Origin: Albidovulum sp.
GTDB lineage: Bacteria > Pseudomonadota > Alphaproteobacteria > Rhodobacterales > Rhodobacteraceae
Length of the DNA stretch: 64,000 bases
Reading direction: 5' to 3'
Assembly (NCBI GenBank): GCA_026989275.1
Contig: JALSJQ010000005.1
Coordinates: 1-64,000, forward strand
The number at the start of each line of letters is the position of its first letter. Within the stretch, counting starts at the first letter, position 1. A program made the position numbers and the translations under genes. The notes under the pieces were generated by a model, which made no database searches, was not told the DNA's origin, and saw nothing but the letters and a program-made list of their open reading frames with translations. Positions 1,491 to 12,927 of the stretch are shown in pieces.

Positions 1491-3137
1491 TCAGCTCGCG
1501 ATCTGTTCGCGCAGCACCGAGATGGTCAGCGAGATCACGAGATAGATGCCGGCGAAGACCAGGAAGGCGAGAATGGTGTTCTCGAAGGCCCGCGGATAGG
1601 CCGCGGCATCGGGCTTCACCGGCTTCACGCCGAGCGAGAGGTAACGCACCTGGCGGTTGGCCTCGAGGCGCGCCGTCTCGAGCTGCTGGAGCGCCTGCGA
1701 CAGGAGCGCCTGCCGCGTCTCGAGATCGGCCTTGGCGATCGCCAGCTCCGAGGAGATGCGGGCGATCGAGGCCGAATCGACGCCGGTCTCGGTCAGTTCC
1801 TTGCGCATTTCGGCAATCAGCCGCTCGAGCCGTGCGATCGAGCGTTCGAGCACCTTGACCTTGGTCGGGTTCGGCCGCGGATTGTCGCGCAGGGATTCGA
1901 GTTCGAGCTGCTTCTTCTTCAGCTCGAGTTCGAAGGTGGTGATCTGCTGCATCCGGGTGGAGACCTCGAGATCGCCGCTGATGACGCCCCGCTTCTCCTG
2001 CAGGTCGATGATGCGCTGCTGGGCCTCCCTGACCTTGCGCTCGGCCTCCTCGTAGGCCTTGCGGGCGCCGCGCATCTGGTCTTCGCGCATGCGCTGGGTC
2101 ATCTGGTCGACCTGCTCCTCGGCATAGCCGACAAGGGCATTGGCGAAGGTGACAGCCGCTTCCGGGGTCGGGGCGATCACCTCCATCTTGACGACGCCTT
2201 CGGTCGGATCGAAGCCGATCTTGACCACCCGCCTGTAGAGCCGATAGGCCTCCTCGTTGCTGGCACCGGCGGGCAGGCGCTGGATCGGGTCGATCCAGGG
2301 CTTCTGGAAGGCCGCCTTGAAGCCGTGCTCGCGGTCGAGCCGGAGCATGGCGTCACGCGACTGGAGATAGCCCTGAACGGCGATGGCGTCCTGGGAAGTG
2401 GCGAAGCTGGTGCCGGCGAAGAGACCGCCACCCTTGGACTGGCCGAAGGGGCTGTCGGCCTTCTGGATGACGAACTCGGCCTGGGTGGCATACATCGGCG
2501 TGGCGACATTGTAGTAGTAGTAGCCCGCGATCAGGGTCGGCAGGAAGATGAAGAAGAACAGCCGCACCGCCAGGAGCGCCAGCCGCCGCCGGCGGCGGCG
2601 CACGAGATCGCGCTGGATGCGCAAGAGCTCCTTCGCGCGGGCGGCATCGTCATAGACATCCTTCGAAGGCAGCGCGGCCTTGCCCTTTTCGGCAGGCAGG
2701 GGCGGTTTCTCCTGCACCGCCGGCGAGGTTTCCTTTCCGGTATCGACCAGCTCGAGCAGGTTCGCCCGCTGGAACGGGTCGATCCCGCGCTTGCGCAGCA
2801 GCCGCACGGCATCGAGATCGGAGGCGGGTTTCAGCCCGTGGCGCTGGGCCACGCGGCGGGCCATGCGCAGCTGGCGGCCCGTCAGGCCCTCGGCGCGAAT
2901 CGCCGCGAGCTCGGCCTCGACCCGGGCGCGGTCCTCCCCGTCCCCGGCGGCACCGGCGGCAGCCGCGGCCGCTGCGGGCGCCATATCGGCCAGGGCGGTG
3001 CCGGCCTCCTTCGCGAGCGCGGCGTTGCCGTCGGTGGCCGGCGGCGTCCCGGCCTCGGCCTCGGCGGCCGGGCGGATGTCGCCCTTGCGGCGGATCAACG
3101 GGCGGCGGATGCGGTATTTGCTGGCCTTAAGCGTCAT
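1491..3137 (-). CDS. kpsE: Capsule polysaccharide export inner-membrane protein, KpsE/polysaccharide co-polymerase type
   Basis: This 548-residue protein is the periplasm-spanning partner of an ABC-2 capsule exporter. Residues 20-70 are Ala-rich and disordered. Residues 70-130 form a charged helical domain ([14 protein letters not shown]). A run of arginines (180-185) precedes the first membrane segment (about 186-208). A long periplasmic part follows, with a coiled-coil rich in E/K/Q/L (about 340-500), and a second membrane helix near 519-541 close to the C-terminus. Two membrane anchors around a coiled coil is the KpsE/Wzz layout. The cytoplasmic N-terminal domain makes it longer than enteric KpsE (about 380 residues). 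It overlaps the end of kpsT by 11 nt, so the two are translationally coupled. Confidence 0.9.
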
Positions 3138-3846
3138 ACTGATACATCTCTTTGGCTTCTTCGAGCGTGTCGAACATGTAGAGCCGACCGTCGCGCAGCA
3201 CGGCGGCCTGCCGGGCGAACTTCTCGAGAATCTTCGGCTGGTGGGAGACGATGACCACGGTGGCGTTCCTCAGCCTTTCGCTGAGGATGTTGCCGGCCTT
3301 GCGGTTGAACTCGGCGTCCGTGGTCATCGGCATGCCCTCGTCGATGAGATAGAGATCGAAGTCGAGGGAGAGCAGGAGCGCGAGGTTGAGCCGGGCGCGC
3401 ATCCCCTGGGAATAGGTGCCGACGGGCTGGTTGAAATACTCGCCGAGATCGGCAAGCCACATGCAGAAGGCCTCGACGTAATCGGGGTCGAGCCCGTAGA
3501 GCTGGGCGATGAAGCGCACGTTCTCGCGGCCGCTGAGCTTCGGCATCACCCCGCCCATGAACCCCAGAGGGAAGGACACGCGGCCATAGCGGATGATCTC
3601 GCCCTCGTCGGGCTGTTCGATGCCGGCCATCATGTTGATGAGCGTGGTCTTGCCGGTGCCGTTGGGAGCGAGAATGCCCAGCGAGCGCCTTTCCTCGATG
3701 CGGAAGGTCGCCCGGTCGAGGATGATCTTGCGCCGCTCGCCGGTCCAGAACGACTTGCTGACGTCGATGAAGTCGATCAGGGGCCGGGCCGGCGCCGCGT
3801 TACGGTCCGCATCGACCGCGGGGGATGTCATCGCCTGGGTGTCCAT
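3127..3846 (-). CDS. kpsT: Capsule polysaccharide export ABC transporter ATP-binding protein
   Basis: This ABC-2 subfamily ATPase powers export of capsular polysaccharide. It has a Walker A of APNGTGKTT (Ala replaces the usual first Gly, still within the P-loop consensus), the signature YSQGMRARL, a Walker B ending LYLIDEG and the switch histidine in VSHQPK. The length, about 239 residues, is near the family norm. The start is uncertain: the ATG at 3846 is used, an upstream TTG at 3876 and an inner ATG at 3831 are alternatives, and none has a strong SD. The AT-rich sequence just upstream may hold the promoter. No KpsM permease is present in the window, so the channel subunit must be encoded elsewhere. 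Confidence 0.9.
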   Translation of the reverse strand: MDTQAMTSPAVDADRNAAPARPLIDFIDVSKSFWTGERRKIILDRATFRIEERRSLGILAPNGTGKTTLINMMAGIEQPDEGEIIRYGRVSFPLGFMGGVMPKLSGRENVRFIAQLYGLDPDYVEAFCMWLADLGEYFNQPVGTYSQGMRARLNLALLLSLDFDLYLIDEGMPMTTDAEFNRKAGNILSERLRNATVVIVSHQPKILEKFARQAAVLRDGRLYMFDTLEEAKEMYQYDA

Positions 3847-3995: not shown

Positions 3996-5264
3996 TCAGT
4001 TCTGTTTCTGAACCCGGAACAGCTTGCCGACGACAAGGGCGATCACCGAGGCGCCGAAGCTGAAGAGCGCACCCATCTTGGCCGCATCCTGCACCGCGCC
4101 CGGCGGGAAGGCGACCGCGGCGACGAAGAGCGCCACCGTGAAGCCGATGGCGGCGACGCAGCCGAGCACGAAGAGGTCGGACATGCGCATGCCCTTCGGC
4201 AGGCCGAGCCGCATCGGCGCCGCGGCGAGCCAGCCGAAGAGGAAGATGCCGAGGGGCTTGCCGACGACGAGACCTGAGAGCACCAGCCAGGTCGGCGCGC
4301 CGATGGCCGAGAATACCACCCCGGCATTGGCGAGGCCGAAGAAGAACAGGATCACCTCGACCGGGGTCTTCAGCATGTGCTCGATCTGGTTGAGCAGGTC
4401 GCGCAGATGTTCTTCCGCGGCGGCGAAGATGCCGAAGCTGCGATCGGCATGGGGGACGGCCAGCACCACCGGGATGAGGCCGAGGGCCGGGTGCAGGCCG
4501 GCCCGGTAGAAGCCGTACCAGGAGAGGGCCCCGGCGACGGCATAGGGATACCATTTGAGATGGCGGTGCACCCAGCTCGAGACCGGCCGGCTCTCGCGGC
4601 CGCGATCGAGACGGATCGGCAATTCGTTGAAGAGGAGCCACACGAGGCCTGCCGCCGCGACCGAGAGGAGGAGCCATTCGGGGTTGACCTCGCCCGTCGG
4701 GTAGAAGATCGCCAGGATGACGAGGCCGGCGGCATCGTCGGCGATGGCGAGAAGCAGCAGGAAGCGGATCGCCGGATGGGCGGCGCCGAACACCATCCGC
4801 CCCACGAGATAGGCGAAGGCGATGTCGGTCGCGGTCGGGATCGCCCAGCCGCGGTGCACCGCCTGGAAGGTTTCCCACCCCATCAGGGCGGCAAGGCCGA
4901 GATAGACGCTCACCGGCCCGATCATGCCGCCGGCCGTGGCGATCAGCGGCGTCATCGCCTTGCGGCCGCGCAGCGCCCCGTTCTTCAGGATGATCGCCTC
5001 CCACACTTCCTTGGCGGCGATGGCGAAGAAGAAGGCCATGAGAATGTCGTTGACAAGGAAGTGCAGCGTGAGCACGCGCATTCCGTCCCTGCCTTCCTCG
5101 ACGATGCCGATCCAGGGGTTTTCCCACAGCGGCGTCTCGATGAAATGGTGATAGCTCGCCGCGTCGAGATTGGCCCAGATCAGGGCGATGACGGCCCCCG
5201 AGATCAGAAGAAGCGAATATTCCTGGATGAAATTCCAGACCCGATAGGCTCTGCGCCGTGCCAT
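3996..5264 (-). CDS. nhaA: Na+/H+ antiporter NhaA
   Basis: This inner-membrane antiporter exchanges sodium for protons in pH and salt homeostasis. The 422-residue protein has about a dozen hydrophobic segments. TDIAFAYLVGR carries the equivalent of the E. coli Asp133 region, and AIADDAAGLVI carries the paired aspartates (Asp163/Asp164 in E. coli) that bind Na+ and H+. The ATG at 5264 has GAGGGAGA 6 nt upstream; a start further upstream would add 18 unconserved residues. It is somewhat longer than E. coli NhaA (388), mainly through a charged insert near EEHLRDLLNQIEH. It appears to be transcribed alone. Confidence 0.95.
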   Translation of the reverse strand: MARRRAYRVWNFIQEYSLLLISGAVIALIWANLDAASYHHFIETPLWENPWIGIVEEGRDGMRVLTLHFLVNDILMAFFFAIAAKEVWEAIILKNGALRGRKAMTPLIATAGGMIGPVSVYLGLAALMGWETFQAVHRGWAIPTATDIAFAYLVGRMVFGAAHPAIRFLLLLAIADDAAGLVILAIFYPTGEVNPEWLLLSVAAAGLVWLLFNELPIRLDRGRESRPVSSWVHRHLKWYPYAVAGALSWYGFYRAGLHPALGLIPVVLAVPHADRSFGIFAAAEEHLRDLLNQIEHMLKTPVEVILFFFGLANAGVVFSAIGAPTWLVLSGLVVGKPLGIFLFGWLAAAPMRLGLPKGMRMSDLFVLGCVAAIGFTVALFVAAVAFPPGAVQDAAKMGALFSFGASVIALVVGKLFRVQKQN

Positions 5265-5372
5265 CACTGTCTCCCTCGTTGTCTGGCTCCAATTAGGCCG
5301 GGCGGAGCGGGAGATCAACTCTCGCTGACGGAATTGTCAGATGAAAGCGTCGCGCGAAGGGGCCGGGGCGGC

Positions 5373-6401
5373 TCAGGCGGCGCCGTGGACGTGTTCGCGG
5401 TGCCAGCGGAGAAAGGCGGGGTGGGGATGCTCGCGCGGATCTTCCGGCAGGCGCAGCTTGCGGTCGGGAACGAAAAGGCGCCGCGCCACCTCGGCCGGAA
5501 CCTTGTTGTGCGAGACGAGGATCGTCATGTCGTCGGCCACCGCCACCAGGCCGCGGTCGAACATCCAGTGGACGGTGCCCGAAAGGGCGAGGCCGTTCTG
5601 GACGATGTCCGGCCCGCCCGCGTGGACCGGCATGATATGGGCCGCCTCCACCTCCGGCCGTCCGCCGCCGTTCCGGAGGGCCAGACCGGTCATGGCGCAG
5701 CGGCCGCCATAGGCGCGCTTGACGCGGCGGGCGAAGGCGGCGTCGCGTTTCGGACGCGAAAGCAGCAGCCGGTCGCGCTCGGCGGGATCGAGAAGGGCGC
5801 GGCGCAGCTCTGCGGGGTCGAAATCGGCGGGCGGCGGGGCCGGTGCATGGGTGGCGGCATCCCCGGCGGGAAAGGCGAAGGGGGTCTGCGGTTCGGCGAA
5901 GCCCGGCACGGGAGCGCTCCGGTTCCCCCATGACGGGGTGGGCGGCACCGTGCCTTCACGGGGCAGCGCCTCGGGCACGTCGAGCCGCGGAGCGAGGCCG
6001 AGGCTGACGATGGCGGCGAAGGCCGCGGGCTCGAGCGGGCGCACCGCCGAAGTGTTGGCGCCGCCGGTGGCGGGGCGGCCGTCGGCGCCGCGCAGGCTCT
6101 TCTCGAAGGCGGTGCCCGTCGTCGGGTCTCCCCGGGGCACCACCGTCTCGAAGTCGAGATAGCTGCCCCCCTGGTAATATGCGTAGTAATGGGCTTCCCG
6201 TGCCGGGTCCGGGGCAATGGTCTCGACCCTGGCGATGGCGACATAGCCGCCACGACCGCCTTTGACGCCTTCGTAGATCACGACCCAGTCGCCCACCGTC
6301 TTCTTCACCCGTTCGAGATAGCGGTGGGGGAAGTGGTAGGCCTGACCGAGCCTGTCGTCATAGGGTGAATTCGGGTTCTGGACGAAAACCGCATTGGCCA
6401 T
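5373..6401 (-). CDS. HNH endonuclease with an N-terminal PUA/EVE-like domain
   Basis: Residues 1-100 form a compact domain with YHFPHRYLERV, GDWVVIYEG, VAIARVETI and HYYAYYQGGSYLDF. This resembles PUA/EVE-superfamily folds that read modified bases in DNA or RNA (inference from pattern). A Pro/Ala-rich linker follows. Residues about 215-300 form an HNH nuclease module: CAMTGLALRNGG, then EAAHIMPVHAGG, then NGLALSGTVHWMFDRGLV, giving the His-Asn-His triad. This layout resembles modification-dependent restriction proteins of the McrA type. There is no methyltransferase partner nearby. The SD is weak. Alternatively it is a general alphaproteobacterial HNH protein with a repair role. Confidence 0.8.
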   Translation of the reverse strand: MANAVFVQNPNSPYDDRLGQAYHFPHRYLERVKKTVGDWVVIYEGVKGGRGGYVAIARVETIAPDPAREAHYYAYYQGGSYLDFETVVPRGDPTTGTAFEKSLRGADGRPATGGANTSAVRPLEPAAFAAIVSLGLAPRLDVPEALPREGTVPPTPSWGNRSAPVPGFAEPQTPFAFPAGDAATHAPAPPPADFDPAELRRALLDPAERDRLLLSRPKRDAAFARRVKRAYGGRCAMTGLALRNGGGRPEVEAAHIMPVHAGGPDIVQNGLALSGTVHWMFDRGLVAVADDMTILVSHNKVPAEVARRLFVPDRKLRLPEDPREHPHPAFLRWHREHVHGAA

Positions 6402-6435
6402 GGCGGGAGGATAGGGCGGGGGTGCGGGCGGGACC

Positions 6436-6465
6436 AGGAAAATCTTCCCGGCGGATCTTGCCGGG
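6436..6465 (-). terminator. Hairpin plus TTTT after the formate dehydrogenase alpha gene
   Basis: On the minus strand CCCGGC and GCCGGG form a 6 bp stem with a 7 nt loop, then AAGATTTTCC. It lies just after the stop codon at 6471, so it is a plausible weak intrinsic terminator. Confidence 0.4.
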
Positions 6466-6470
6466 GCGTC

Positions 6471-9266
6471 TCACTCCGCCGCCATGGTCTCCACGGGTTC
6501 GACCCTGAGCGCCGAGAACTTGAATTCGGGGATCTTGCCGAACGGGTCGAGCGCGGGGTTGGTCAGGCAGTTGGCCGGGGCCTCGCGATAGGCGAAGGGC
6601 AGGAAGACCGCGTCCTCCGGCACGGCCCGGTCGGCCCGCGTGGGGGCGATGACGGCGCCGCGGCGGGTCACGAGCCGCACGTTCTGGCCGGGGCGGATGC
6701 CGAGCCGGGCGAGGGTGCGCGGATGCAGGGCGGCGACGGGGCCGGGTTCGAGCGCGTCGAGCACCGGGGCGCGCCGCGTCATCGCGCCGGTGTGCCAGTG
6801 TTCGAGCTGGCGGCCGGTGATGAGGATCATCGGGAATTCGGCGTCGGGCAGCTCCGCGGGCGGTGCCACCTCGGCCGGGGTGAAGCGGGCCCGGCCCGAG
6901 GGGCGGGGGAAGCCGTCGGAGAACACAACCGAAAGCCCCGGATGATCGGGGGCCGGGCAGGGATAGGTGACGGCGTGTTTGCGCTCGAGCCGCTCCCAGG
7001 TGATGTTGTCGAGCGAAGGCATCAGCCGCTTCATCTCGGCGAAGACTTCCCGCGGATGGCCGAAATCCCAGGGCAGGCCGAGCCGCTTGCCGATCTCGAC
7101 GATGATTCGCCAGTCGGGACGGGCGTCGCCCGGAGGCGGCACCAGCGGCCGCAGCATCTGCACCTGGCGGTTGGTGTTGGTGACGGTGCCGGCCTTCTCG
7201 TAGGCCGCGGCCGCGGGCAGGATCACGTCGGCGAACATGGCGGTTTCGGTGAGGAAGATGTCCTGCACCACGAGATGCTCGAGCTTCGCCAGCGCCGCGC
7301 GGGCATGCGCGAGGTCGGGGTCCGACATGGCCGGGTTCTCGCCGGCGATGTACATGGCGCGGATCCGGCCTTCGTGGATCGCGTCCATGATCTCGACCAC
7401 GGTCAGCCCCGGCTCGGGCGAGAGCGCGCCCGGGGGCAGGCCCCAGAGCTCCTCGGCCCGGGTGCGGGCAGCCGCGTCGCCCACCGGGCGATAATCGGGC
7501 AGCACCATCGGGATGAGCCCGGCATCGGAGGCGCCCTGCACGTTGTTCTGGCCTCTCAGCGGGTGCAGCCCGGTGCCGGGCCGGCCGACATGGCCGCACA
7601 TGAGGGCGAGGGAGATCAGCGAGCGGGCGTTGTCGGTGCCGTGGACGTGCTGACTCACCCCCATGCCCCAGAAGATCATTCCGGCCCGGGCGGTGGCGAA
7701 GCTTCGGGCGACGGCGCGGATGGTGGCGGCGTCGATGCCCGTGACGGGGGCCATCTTCTCGGGGCTGAAGGGGGCGAGATGACGGCGGAAGGCTTCCCAG
7801 TTCTCGGTCCGCCGGGCGATGTAGTCGGCGTCGAACAGCTCCTCCGCCGCGATCGCGTGCATGATGGCGTTGAGAAGGGCGACATCGGTGCCGGGGCGGA
7901 ACTGGAGCGGGAAGGTCGCATGGCGGAAGAGGCCGTTCGCCCGCGGATCCATCACGATCAGCGTGCCGCCCCGGGCGGCGAAGTCCTTGAAGAAGGTGGC
8001 GGCGATCGGATGGTTCTCGACCGGGTTGGCGCCGACGACGATGGCGCAGTCGGCGTTCTCGATCTCGTTGAAGGTGGCGGTCACGGCGCCCGATCCGATG
8101 TTTTCCATCAGCGCCGCCACCGAGGAGGCATGGCACAGCCGCGTGCAGTGATCGACGTGGTTGTGCCCGAAGCCCTGGCGGATGAGGCGCTGGAAGAGAT
8201 AGGCTTCCTCGTTGCTGCACTTGGCCGAGCCGAAGCCCGCCACCGCCGCGCCGCCATGGGCGTCGCGGATGCGCGCAAGGCCCCCTGCCGCCACGTCGAG
8301 CGCCTCCTCCCATGTGGCTTCGCGGAAATGGGTGAAGGGATCGGCCGGATCGACCCCCATCTCCTTCGGTGCGCCGGGCTTGCGGATCAGCGGTTTCGTC
8401 AGCCGCTCGGGATGGTGGATGTAATCGAAGCCGAAGCGACCCTTGACGCAGAGCCGCCCGCGATTGGCCGGCCCGTCCGCCCCCTCGACGGCGCGGATGC
8501 GCCCCTTCGCACCGAAGGCCTCGATCTGGCAGCCGACGCCGCAGAAGGCGCAGACCGTGCGGCCGAGGGAGGGTGCGGCGGCGCGGTCGCCGTTGCCGGC
8601 CGCGTCCACGAGCGCCGCCGGCATCAGCGCTCCCGTCGGGCAGACGGCGACGCATTCGCCACAGGCCACGCAGGTGCTCTCACCCAGCGGGTCGTCGAGA
8701 TCGAAGGCGACATGGGTGGCAAGGCCCCGGCCGGCCATGCCGATCACGTCGTTGTGCTGCACCTCGCGGCAGGCCCTCAGGCAGAGCGTGCAGTCGATGC
8801 AGGCGCCGTGATCGACCCGGATCGCCGGGTGGCTGTCGTCGATCGCGCCGGGCGCCCCGCTCGGGGGGAAGGCGCCGGTTTCGGCACCGGCCAGTTCCGC
8901 CATGCGCAGGAGATGGGCGCTTTCGTCGGGCGTGCGATCTTCGGGCAGATCCGCGAGGAGCAGTTCGATCACCCCCTTGCGCGCCGCTGCGGCCCGCGGG
9001 CTCGTCACCCGCACCACCATGCCTTCGGCGGGAATGCGGATGCAGGAAGCGGCGAGGCTGCGTTCTCCCTCGATCTCGACCATGCAGGCGCGGCAATTGC
9101 CGTCGGCCCGGTAATCGGGCGCGTCGCGATGGCACAGATGGGGGATGGTGAGGCCGTGCCGCTTCGCCACCTGCCAGATGGTCTCGCCGGGGCGGGCGAG
9201 CACCTCCCGGCCGTCGAGGATGAAGCGGATGGCCGCGTTGCCTGCTTCCTCGCTCGTTCCCGTCAT
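6471..9266 (-). CDS. NAD-type formate dehydrogenase, molybdenum/iron-sulfur alpha subunit
   Basis: This 931-residue protein oxidises formate to CO2 at a bis-MGD molybdenum centre and passes electrons to a diaphorase. A [2Fe-2S] ferredoxin domain carries Cys45, 58, 61 and 75. Two [4Fe-4S] sets follow (CIDCTLCLRAC at 156-166, CVACGECVAVC at 199-209), then the molybdopterin-domain cluster (CAFCGVGC at 239-246 plus Cys273). VDHCTRLCHASSVAAL aligns with the FdhF active site and puts the Mo-ligand cysteine at 378, followed by His379. The segment 93-130, where FdsA/NuoG relatives carry a His-Cys3 cluster, has no cysteine here. The start has GGGGAGG about 7 nt upstream. The NuoE-NuoF fusion at 11050-12744 is the probable partner. 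No fdhD or fdsD is adjacent. Confidence 0.92.
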   Translation of the reverse strand: MTGTSEEAGNAAIRFILDGREVLARPGETIWQVAKRHGLTIPHLCHRDAPDYRADGNCRACMVEIEGERSLAASCIRIPAEGMVVRVTSPRAAAARKGVIELLLADLPEDRTPDESAHLLRMAELAGAETGAFPPSGAPGAIDDSHPAIRVDHGACIDCTLCLRACREVQHNDVIGMAGRGLATHVAFDLDDPLGESTCVACGECVAVCPTGALMPAALVDAAGNGDRAAAPSLGRTVCAFCGVGCQIEAFGAKGRIRAVEGADGPANRGRLCVKGRFGFDYIHHPERLTKPLIRKPGAPKEMGVDPADPFTHFREATWEEALDVAAGGLARIRDAHGGAAVAGFGSAKCSNEEAYLFQRLIRQGFGHNHVDHCTRLCHASSVAALMENIGSGAVTATFNEIENADCAIVVGANPVENHPIAATFFKDFAARGGTLIVMDPRANGLFRHATFPLQFRPGTDVALLNAIMHAIAAEELFDADYIARRTENWEAFRRHLAPFSPEKMAPVTGIDAATIRAVARSFATARAGMIFWGMGVSQHVHGTDNARSLISLALMCGHVGRPGTGLHPLRGQNNVQGASDAGLIPMVLPDYRPVGDAAARTRAEELWGLPPGALSPEPGLTVVEIMDAIHEGRIRAMYIAGENPAMSDPDLAHARAALAKLEHLVVQDIFLTETAMFADVILPAAAAYEKAGTVTNTNRQVQMLRPLVPPPGDARPDWRIIVEIGKRLGLPWDFGHPREVFAEMKRLMPSLDNITWERLERKHAVTYPCPAPDHPGLSVVFSDGFPRPSGRARFTPAEVAPPAELPDAEFPMILITGRQLEHWHTGAMTRRAPVLDALEPGPVAALHPRTLARLGIRPGQNVRLVTRRGAVIAPTRADRAVPEDAVFLPFAYREAPANCLTNPALDPFGKIPEFKFSALRVEPVETMAAE

Positions 9267-9600
9267 CGTCCGTCCTCCCCGTCCGGTCTTCCGGCTTGTG
9301 CGCCCCGGCACCGGTCGGGCCCGCTGCGGGGCGTTGCCGGCCGCTCATGCCGCCCCGCCCGCTCCCTCGTCATCGATGCGGACCCGGCCGCGGGCGAAGC
9401 GGGCGGCTGCGGGCCGCCTTCCCTCGTCCATTCCCTTTCGGCGGGGCACGCTGGTCTTCCGTGCCGTTTCCTGTCAGTCTCCGATGACGGGAGTGCGGAT
9501 GCAAGCCCGGATCCGCCTTCTGCCGGCCCGCTTGCGGCATGGGGGGCGGGGAGAGAAGCGAAAAAAGCGGGAACAAGAAGAAAGCGGGAGGGACGAGAAG
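9267..9600 (+). promoter_or_regulatory. Divergent intergenic region between formate dehydrogenase and dipeptidase
   Basis: These 334 bp separate two divergent starts and must hold both promoters. I see no clear -35/-10 pair. The last 60 bases are strongly purine-rich on the plus strand and end in the SD GGGAGGG of the dipeptidase. Confidence 0.5.
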
Positions 9601-11049: not shown

Positions 11050-12744
11050 TCAGCTTTCGCGAGCCGCATCCGGGAAATGCCGCAGCACCGTCTCGAAGGC
11101 GTTTGGCGCCGCCTGGCCGAGACCGCAGATCGAGGCGTCGCGCATGAGGGCGCCGAGCCTGCCGAGCCTTTCCGCGTCCCACGGGCCTTCCATCAGTTGA
11201 AGCGCCTTGGCGCAGCCGGCGCGACAGGGCGTGCACTGGCCGCAGCTTTCATGGGCGAAGAAGGCGAGGAAGCCGCGCGCGGCATCGGCGATGTCGTCCC
11301 GGTCCGAGAGCACCATCACCGCCGCCGAGCCGATGAAGGCGCCATGCGGTTCGAGACAGCCGAAGTCGAGCGGCACGTCGTCGAGCGTGGCCGGCAGGAT
11401 CCCCGAGGAAGCGCCGCCCGGCACCCAGGCGGCGAAGCGGTGCCCCTCCTCCATCCCTCCTGCCGCGGCGATCACCTCGCCGATGGTCGCACCCGCGGGC
11501 AGGAGGTGGACACCGGGCCGTTTCACCCGCCCCGAAACCGAATAATGCCTCAGGCCGCGGCGGCCGTTGTGTTCGACGGCGAAGATTTCGGGCCCTTCGG
11601 TGACGATCCGGCCCGCCCACCAGAGCGTCTCGACATTGTTGACGAGGGTCGGCTTGCCGAAGAGGCCCTTCTCGGCGACATAGGGCGGGCGGTGGCGCGG
11701 CAGGCCGCGGCGGCCTTCGAGCGATTCGATCAGCGCCGATTCCTCGCCGCAGATATAGGCTCCGGCGCCGCGCCGCAGGACGATCCGCCCCGGTGCCGCG
11801 AGGCCGGCTTCCTCGAGGGCGGCGATCTCCTCGGCGAGGAGCGCGTGCAGCGCGGGGTATTCGTCGCGCAGATAGATCCAGACCGTGCGCGCGCCCACCA
11901 CCTCGGCCGCGATCAGCGCCCCTTCCAGCACCCGGTGGGGGGCGGTCTCGAGCAGGTGGCGGTCCTTGAAGGTGCCCGGTTCGCCCTCGTCGGCATTTAC
12001 GACGACATGGCCTTCGCCGGCACGGGCGACGTTTTCCCTCACGATCCGCCATTTGGCATGGGTCGGGAAACCGGCCCCGCCCATGCCTCGCAGACCCGCC
12101 GTCTCGAGCGCGGCCAGAACCTCCCCGGCGGCCGGGGGGCGGTCGCGCCAGCGATAGGCGCCGCGGGCGCGGGCGGCGGCGAGCCGCTCGGCCGGGGGCG
12201 GGGCCTGTCGGGTGCGGGCCGGGTCGGCCGCCGCGGCGCGGGCTTCCGCCGCCAGCTGGGCCACATTCCGTCCCGAAAGATCGCGCTTGCCGAGCATCAC
12301 CGCCGGCGCCCTGTCGCAGCGGCCCATGCAGGGAGCGCGCAGCACCCGCACCTTTCCGGGGTCGAGCGTCGCGGCGAGAGCCTCGGCCAGCGCCTCGGCG
12401 CCCCGCATCCGGCAGGGAAGCGAATCGCACACCCGGATGGTGAGGGTCGGCGGCGGCGTCTCCCCCTCCTTCACCAGATCGAAATGGGCGTAGAAGCTCG
12501 CGACTTCCCAGACCTCCGCCTGCGACAGCCCCAGGATCTCGGCCAGCGCCCGCAGATGACGGGCCGCCAGATGGCCGAAACGGTCCTGCAACAGATGCAG
12601 ATGCTCGATGAGCAGGTCGCGCCGCACCATCTTTCCCTCGAGGAGTTCCCGCACCTCCTCGAGCGCCGCCTCCTCGAGCGGGCGGCCCTTCGGAAAGGGG
12701 CGCGGCCGCCGCCCGTTCTTCGTGATGGCTGTCTTCTTCGTCAT
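11050..12744 (-). CDS. NuoE-NuoF fusion: diaphorase (gamma-beta) subunit of NAD-dependent formate dehydrogenase
   Basis: The 564-residue protein joins a NuoE/FdsG-like [2Fe-2S] domain to a NuoF/FdsB-like FMN and NAD domain. The first part binds its cluster with Cys106, 111, 139 and 143 (VCDSLPC and APCMGRC). The second starts near residue 190 with [15 protein letters not shown] (FMN/NAD site) and [14 protein letters not shown]. It ends with the [4Fe-4S] motif [12 protein letters not shown] and SICGLG. It takes electrons from the alpha subunit and reduces NAD+. Complex I keeps these as separate genes, and no other nuo genes are nearby. The ATG has AGGGAG about 8 nt upstream. The partner alpha gene lies 1.8 kb downstream on the same strand, past the dipeptidase. 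Confidence 0.92.
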
Positions 12745-12927
12745 CCGTTCTCTCCCTGCCTGCCCCATGGTTGCGCTTCGGGGCGCCGGTCGCAAGCCCG
12801 GATGCGACGCGCCGGGTCGACAAACGCCCCGACCGGCGGCGCCCTGCCGCAGAGCGGGGCGGCCGGGCGGCGCCCTTGCGGTCGGTGCTCCTGTCGGCGA
12901 AGCTGCCCGGCGAGGGAGGATCGGGCG

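Follow-up and report, generated by a model that had tools for sequence, protein, structure and literature searches.

A probable stand-alone EVE-HNH restriction endonuclease of Albidovulum sp. and its mainly alphaproteobacterial relatives

Described enzymes and the window gene

The first description of EVE-HNH enzymes is said to be that of Lutz in 2019. VcaM4I, TspA15I and CmeDI are named members of this kind (PMC7897488), and a census reports "a substantial variety" of EVE-PD(D/E)XK and EVE-HNH enzymes (PMC7641849). In VcaM4I of Vibrio campbellii (PDB 6yex, PMC7897488) the EVE domain precedes the HNH domain within a single ORF of ~300 amino acids. Other enzymes with a related HNH module differ in the reader: TagI (PDB 6ghs) has an SRA domain, not an EVE domain (PMC7897488), and the m6A-dependent HHPV4I, of SRA-wH-HNH architecture, senses Gm6ATC through its winged helix (PMC10101028), for which the protein described here has no Pfam match. 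The SRA domain of HHPV4I is dispensable for m6A-dependent cleavage (PMC10101028), and therefore a PUA domain beside the HNH module of the protein described here need not be the sensor.

The window analysed (64,000 nucleotides, positions 1 to 64,000 of contig JALSJQ010000005.1 in assembly GCA_026989275.1 of Albidovulum sp.) encodes on its minus strand a 342-amino-acid protein (5373..6401, ATG start) of a mainly alphaproteobacterial branch of the EVE-HNH kind already known. No characterisation of this alphaproteobacterial branch was found in the accessible parts of the literature on EVE-HNH and related enzymes, and the supplements of the census (PMC7641849) may include it. The ORF, its translation and the family alignment identify a real gene, with 26 invariant columns in 65 aligned sequences and full-length relatives across many genera (39-58% identical across genera and 82% within the same genus, among the best 80 of 256 loci). 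Its GC content (0.709) and GC3 (0.845) lie within the span of values measured for six neighbours, in a window of 70% GC. A Paracoccus HNH endonuclease (PMC11473606), considered as a possible family member, is too small at 16.2 kDa.

The gene lies between two genes of its own strand that are outside the system: upstream fdhA (6471..9311, minus strand), read as a formate dehydrogenase subunit from its Pfam molybdopterin oxidoreductase match and from synteny, which marks a recurrent location, and downstream nhaA (3996..5318, minus strand), a Na+/H+ antiporter gene according to Pfam. The five neighbour proteins scanned with Pfam are the products of metabolic, transport or peptidase genes, with no methyltransferase among them, and the methyltransferase matches of the genome (one N6_N4_Mtase, PF01555, and two N6_Mtase, PF02384) are on contigs C40, C14 and C44, apart from contig C5 that carries the gene. 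The nuclease thus stands alone, as had been claimed from the sequence, and a Type II restriction-modification system with an HNH endonuclease was rejected because no methyltransferase adjoins the gene and the matches are on other contigs. The same genome encodes a second HNH protein (G000:C43:1152-1280, L001; PF01844, 3.3e-14) in an open frame of 475 amino acids.

An AlphaFold2 model built from 65 sequences (mean pLDDT 87.4) predicts two domains joined by a low-confidence linker (residues 139-214; 5760..5987, minus strand), in which pLDDT is low at about 141-190 and helices are predicted at 196-204 and 206-213. When the full-length model is compared with the PDB by Foldseek, VcaM4I is first (E 3.4e-7) and TagI second (1.4e-4), followed by lone EVE-kind proteins. 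Superposition of the whole chain on VcaM4I is poor (rmsd 18.6 by Foldseek and 16.6 by VIA-align) and the linker of VcaM4I is shorter; in the predicted model, the individual domains are like those of VcaM4I and their arrangement is unlike. Counted from where the match starts, the relatives are 284-308 amino acids long, versus 342 in the window protein.

The protein is likely to be a stand-alone, NTP-independent, modification-dependent (type IV) EVE-HNH restriction endonuclease. The mechanism that we infer from VcaM4I and its kind, including the base flipping, the autoinhibition by the linker, the dimer, the restriction of phage and the base that is read, is as follows: the EVE-like domain would scan incoming DNA and bind a base with a modification, most likely of cytosine, which would be flipped into its pocket; the linker would hold the HNH module off until modified DNA is bound; and the HNH module, probably as a dimer, would then cut nearby, giving the protein an anti-phage function in the restriction of modified DNA. 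The sequence-only reading, which had recognised the architecture of modification-dependent restriction enzymes, was right in that respect, the predicted EVE-like and HNH folds being combined as in VcaM4I, and the function that it proposed is plausible. This reading gives a widespread family (256 loci by tblastn) a concrete function that can be tested. If it is true, a single gene in alphaproteobacteria acts as a barrier both against modified phage and against DNA from methylating hosts, which bears on the transformation of Rhodobacteraceae and rhizobia, and the family is a source of new modified-base readers.

The HNH nuclease module

The nuclease module (residues 215-338; 5388..5759, minus strand) contains a Pfam HNH_2 (PF13391) core with H255, N269, H278 and D282 (residues 235-288; 5538..5699, minus strand; E 2.7e-9, 37.2 bits versus a cut-off of 21), and HNH_2 is matched at E<=1 by all 65 family members. 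The best structural match of the module is TagI, which is closest to residues 216-342 by VIA-align (Z 14.4, rmsd 2.8, 109 residues aligned, 28% identity); the C-terminal part of the NCBIfam profile PT-DNA_restrict also matches here (4.3e-26). A search of PDB sequences with the single protein finds TagI (2.5e-7) and VcaM4I (0.011), and with the 65-member profile VcaM4I is first (1.1e-9), through the HNH part. Over residues 216-340 of the query, identity to the HNH gene of virus HHPV4, which presumably encodes HHPV4I, is 40.9%.

H255, N269 and H278 are present in all 86 aligned sequences (the window included), and D282 in 85 of them, in keeping with the clear HNH domain noted earlier. The spacing of H255, N269 and H278 (14 and 9) is identical to that of H296, N310 and H319 in HHPV4I, the alanine mutants of which have lost cleavage (PMC10101028). 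The spacing of N269, H278 and D282 (9, then 4) equals that of N241, D250 and D254 in VcaM4I, of which the H224A, D250A and D254A variants are drastically impaired (PMC7897488). Neither protein has a metal ligand before the first histidine (A254 in the window protein, S223 in VcaM4I). Unlike VcaM4I, the window protein has a histidine, H278, at the position of D250, and its first histidine is separated from the asparagine by 14 positions rather than 17. Because the catalytic set is conserved and its spacing is shared with HHPV4I, mutants of which have lost cleavage, and from N269 on with VcaM4I, mutants of which are drastically impaired, the nuclease module is predicted, very likely correctly, to be active.

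The EVE-like domain and the base that it may read

The presumed modified-base reader is a PUA-superfamily, EVE-like domain (residues 1-138; 5988..6401, minus strand) delimited by the AlphaFold2 model, VIA-align and conservation. A PUA/EVE-like fold had been proposed for the first 100 residues on the strength of the motifs YHFPHRYLERV and GDWVVIYEG, which are present within residues 22-45; structure prediction and fold search of the N-terminal domain bear out the likeness, and the extent is to be corrected to residues 1-138. In the full-length model, residues 1-136 align best by VIA-align with PH1033 (Z 12.2, rmsd 2.6, 123 residues aligned). When the domain is predicted alone (pLDDT 92.2), VIA-align ranks 1-11 are all of the EVE kind, from Z 12.1 (PH1033) to 10.1; we take PH1033, MJECL36, Atu2648, Rpa0253, Q88CH6 and a Leishmania protein to be EVE proteins. 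The VcaM4I reader (Z 10.1, rmsd 3.0, 122 residues aligned), THYN1 with 5mC DNA (Z 10.1) and PSPTO5229, which is likewise within ranks 1-11, are called EVE in PMC7897488. Like the EVE topology described in PMC7897488, the model has a strand after the core, at 120-123, the comparison being by strand position and not by pairing.

The modelled domain can be assigned firmly to the PUA superfamily. Among the sub-classes EVE ranks first, if narrowly, and is less firm than the superfamily because the YTH rows start at Z 9.9; these and the ASCH rows (Z 9.2) are close behind, level with the 10.1 of VcaM4I, and both classes were set aside since the best rows are EVE. SRA rows are absent among the VIA-align matches listed, which does not count against SRA. 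A resemblance to the EVE-like domain is also seen in the N-terminal part of DrmA, from the DISARM system (PDB 7s9v and 7s9w, chain A residues 13-128, Z 8.8-9.1, 104-110 residues aligned), where a PUA-like domain may therefore be present.

By comparison of predicted and known folds, the likeness of the reader to known EVE proteins is one of fold only, and similarity of sequence to the VcaM4I reader is undetectable. The Pfam EVE (PF01878) match is weak (residues 33-76, E 0.33, 11.4 bits versus a cut-off of 23) and is found at E<=1 in 10 of the 65 family members (best 0.0054); a profile-against-profile comparison with the VcaM4I reader, for which the VcaM4I side comprises only 4 sequences, gives a probability of 0.3%; a search of PDB sequences with the reader profile yields no EVE protein; and Foldseek with the lone domain gives no match at E<=0.001 (best 1.4e-3).

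In the family alignment Y14, D16, Y22, F24, P25 and Y53 of the reader are invariant, and Y28, D65 and A74 are invariant or nearly so. The base pocket of VcaM4I is hydrophobic (P24, W82 and Y130), and in the first round of variants E15A and Y130A were those that clearly impaired its activity on 5hmC DNA (PMC7897488). In a hand alignment with an ungapped offset of one, T11, E15 and P24 of VcaM4I are placed against S12, D16 and P25; Y130, likewise aligned by hand without coordinates, falls on the conserved alanine A119, with no counterpart assigned to W82, and the wedge residue Q128 falls on T117, in a column that is glutamine in 43 of 86 sequences. Because there is no profile relation to VcaM4I and the residue matches are hand alignments only, the pocket may differ in chemistry from that of VcaM4I.

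An appreciable possibility, which would leave the enzyme in type IV as a variant of the preferred reading and not exclusive of it, is that the base read by the EVE-like domain is neither 5mC nor 5hmC but, for example, 6mA, 4mC or a hypermodified phage base. It is favoured by the lack of a detectable sequence relation to the VcaM4I reader, by the apparent absence of the stacking tyrosine in the hand alignment, and by the YTH folds, known for reading 6mA, that score close behind EVE. Against it, EVE-kind folds are the best matches, and of these THYN1 and VcaM4I have been linked to 5hmC and 5mC (PMC7897488), and the S12-D16-P25 spacing in the hand alignment mimics T11-E15-P24 of VcaM4I.

If the enzyme targeted 5mC, one might expect it to be rarer in hosts that carry C5 methyltransferases. 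The Albidovulum genome has no C5-methyltransferase (PF00145) match; 37 of the 75 carriers in its taxonomic family hold one, which also favours a different base, versus 182 of 319 non-carriers, a null difference by Fisher's test (p=0.25) among genomes that are not independent. The comparison gives no support for general targeting of 5mC; this could reflect a requirement for sequence context or a different modification.

Distribution, divergence and genomic location

The type IV reading had been coupled with the expectation that universal vertical conservation without a restriction phenotype would count against it, and no universal conservation is seen: the distribution is patchy, with 75 carriers among 394 genomes of the taxonomic family (E<=1e-30), 30 among 289 of the class (E<=0.001, several through the HNH part only) and 24 among 101 relatives (E<=0.001). 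The 256 loci in genome contigs were confirmed by tblastn, and the best 80, which were kept, are by their titles mostly from Rhodobacterales, Sphingomonadales and Hyphomicrobiales, plus Corallococcus. Matches occur in 134 of 72,556 plasmid records, 42 of them covering at least 80% of the query; where annotations are present among the 40 plasmid matches listed, they are "HNH endonuclease", "restriction endonuclease" or "hypothetical protein". With the reader alone as the query, 49 plasmid records match, and the annotated ones among the 40 listed are HNH or restriction endonucleases and one hypothetical protein. A pattern scan of viral contigs gave 11 stretches, none of which was confirmed, and 5 of 50,697 phage records match, in the HNH part only.

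Across 74 loci, at most 3 of the 133 immediate neighbours match known defence genes of PADLOC at E<=1e-10, the neighbours being chosen by a longest-ORF rule that errs in GC-rich DNA and leaves out the window and proteins of more than 1000 amino acids. For this reason the gene is not, as a rule, an island gene. Pfam families of the neighbours are mostly metabolic or regulatory, among the 25 of 90 families listed. Such surroundings, and the fact that YTH and EVE domains have mostly been tied to modified RNA (PMC7897488), would suit a nuclease acting on RNA or in housekeeping, such as quality control of RNA modification or repair, rather than in defence; this is nevertheless unlikely, given the patchy presence, the copies on plasmids, the absence from most of the family genomes sampled, and the closest enzymes, whose HNH modules cut DNA.

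It is very improbable that the protein is a phosphorothioate-dependent HNH endonuclease of the ScoMcrA kind (NCBIfam NF045808), with the same HNH module and an N-terminal domain that senses sulphur-modified backbones: PT-DNA_restrict is the best NCBIfam match and is matched by 65 of 65 members at E<=1, and ScoMcrA is in the full-length Foldseek list (E 0.029), but the match is limited to the C-terminal part of the profile (157-282 of 284), its N-terminal part having none, and reaches 91.7 bits, about half of the cut-off of 180, and the N-terminal model matches EVE-kind folds. The genome has no match to dndC, which is neutral for this explanation.

Within the EVE-HNH family, the reader domains diverge faster than the nuclease domains: mean pairwise identity is 45.8% for the reader versus 58.5% for the nuclease, and the reader is the less identical of the two in 3538 of 3655 pairs, which are not independent. 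Compared with the same-genus locus L003, the first 72 residues are 71% identical and the rest 82%; six of seven neighbours (kdsA, the gene at 1491-3137, an ABC gene, nhaA, fdhA and a piece of fdhB) are 90-96% identical, and the seventh, an M19 peptidase gene, at 83%, has diverged as much as the nuclease part. We tentatively suggest that the family is a separate EVE-like reader branch, not detectably related in sequence to the VcaM4I reader, in which the pocket has no stacking tyrosine and another DNA modification is read, perhaps one of alphaproteobacterial phages, the reader evolving under changing phage modifications; it may recognise something new.

Four of the 75 family copies are flagged as broken in frame. 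The same-genus copy is among them (L003, 6001-7045, noted together with L113 and L176), its first 72 residues being out of frame with the rest, possibly owing to a broken gene or to an error of draft assembly. On the Sinorhizobium medicae plasmid pMl1 (L252), a VcaM4I-like HNH gene (3009-3542) is ~8.5 kb from a family member (12001-12912), and an Agrobacterium tumefaciens F2 record matches both the family query and the VcaM4I query. The Rhizobium phaseoli plasmid pRphaR744a (L254) has a VcaM4I-like EVE-HNH gene followed by a gene annotated as a very short patch repair endonuclease.

The position beside fdhA recurs: fdhA is upstream on the same strand in 14 of the 75 family loci, within 500 bp in 13 of them, and downstream in one further locus, these counts being lower bounds as some loci end at contig ends. 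The fdhA-adjacent copies are from many genera (the window, 5373-9311, L176, L177, L180, L182, L184, L189, L218-L221, L231, L232 and L236). The fdhA gene itself is in 355 of 394 family genomes (E<=1e-150), and 1 of 28 other high-scoring fdhA loci has an EVE-HNH gene within a flank of 1.5 kb or less; what comes after fdhA varies among these 28. An M20-peptidase-like gene (Pfam) directly follows fdhA in L171 and L152, whereas two such genes are separated by the EVE-HNH gene in L177, L219, L220 and L232, and likewise, by a short match, in L218. A tree of 79 rows was built from 69 of the 75 family copies (6 under 250 amino acids being left out) and 10 others; L231 (branch 10) and L221 (branch 1) were apparently extracted badly, which makes it a rough tree. 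For the 12 fdhA-adjacent copies among its rows, a minimum of 10 changes is required, versus a mean of 11.5 when shuffled, with 48 of 500 shuffles as low. Because the well-supported branches force only 3 changes, the tree leaves room for one origin of the location as well as for several. The spot beside fdhA is read as a tolerated site for a lone defence gene.
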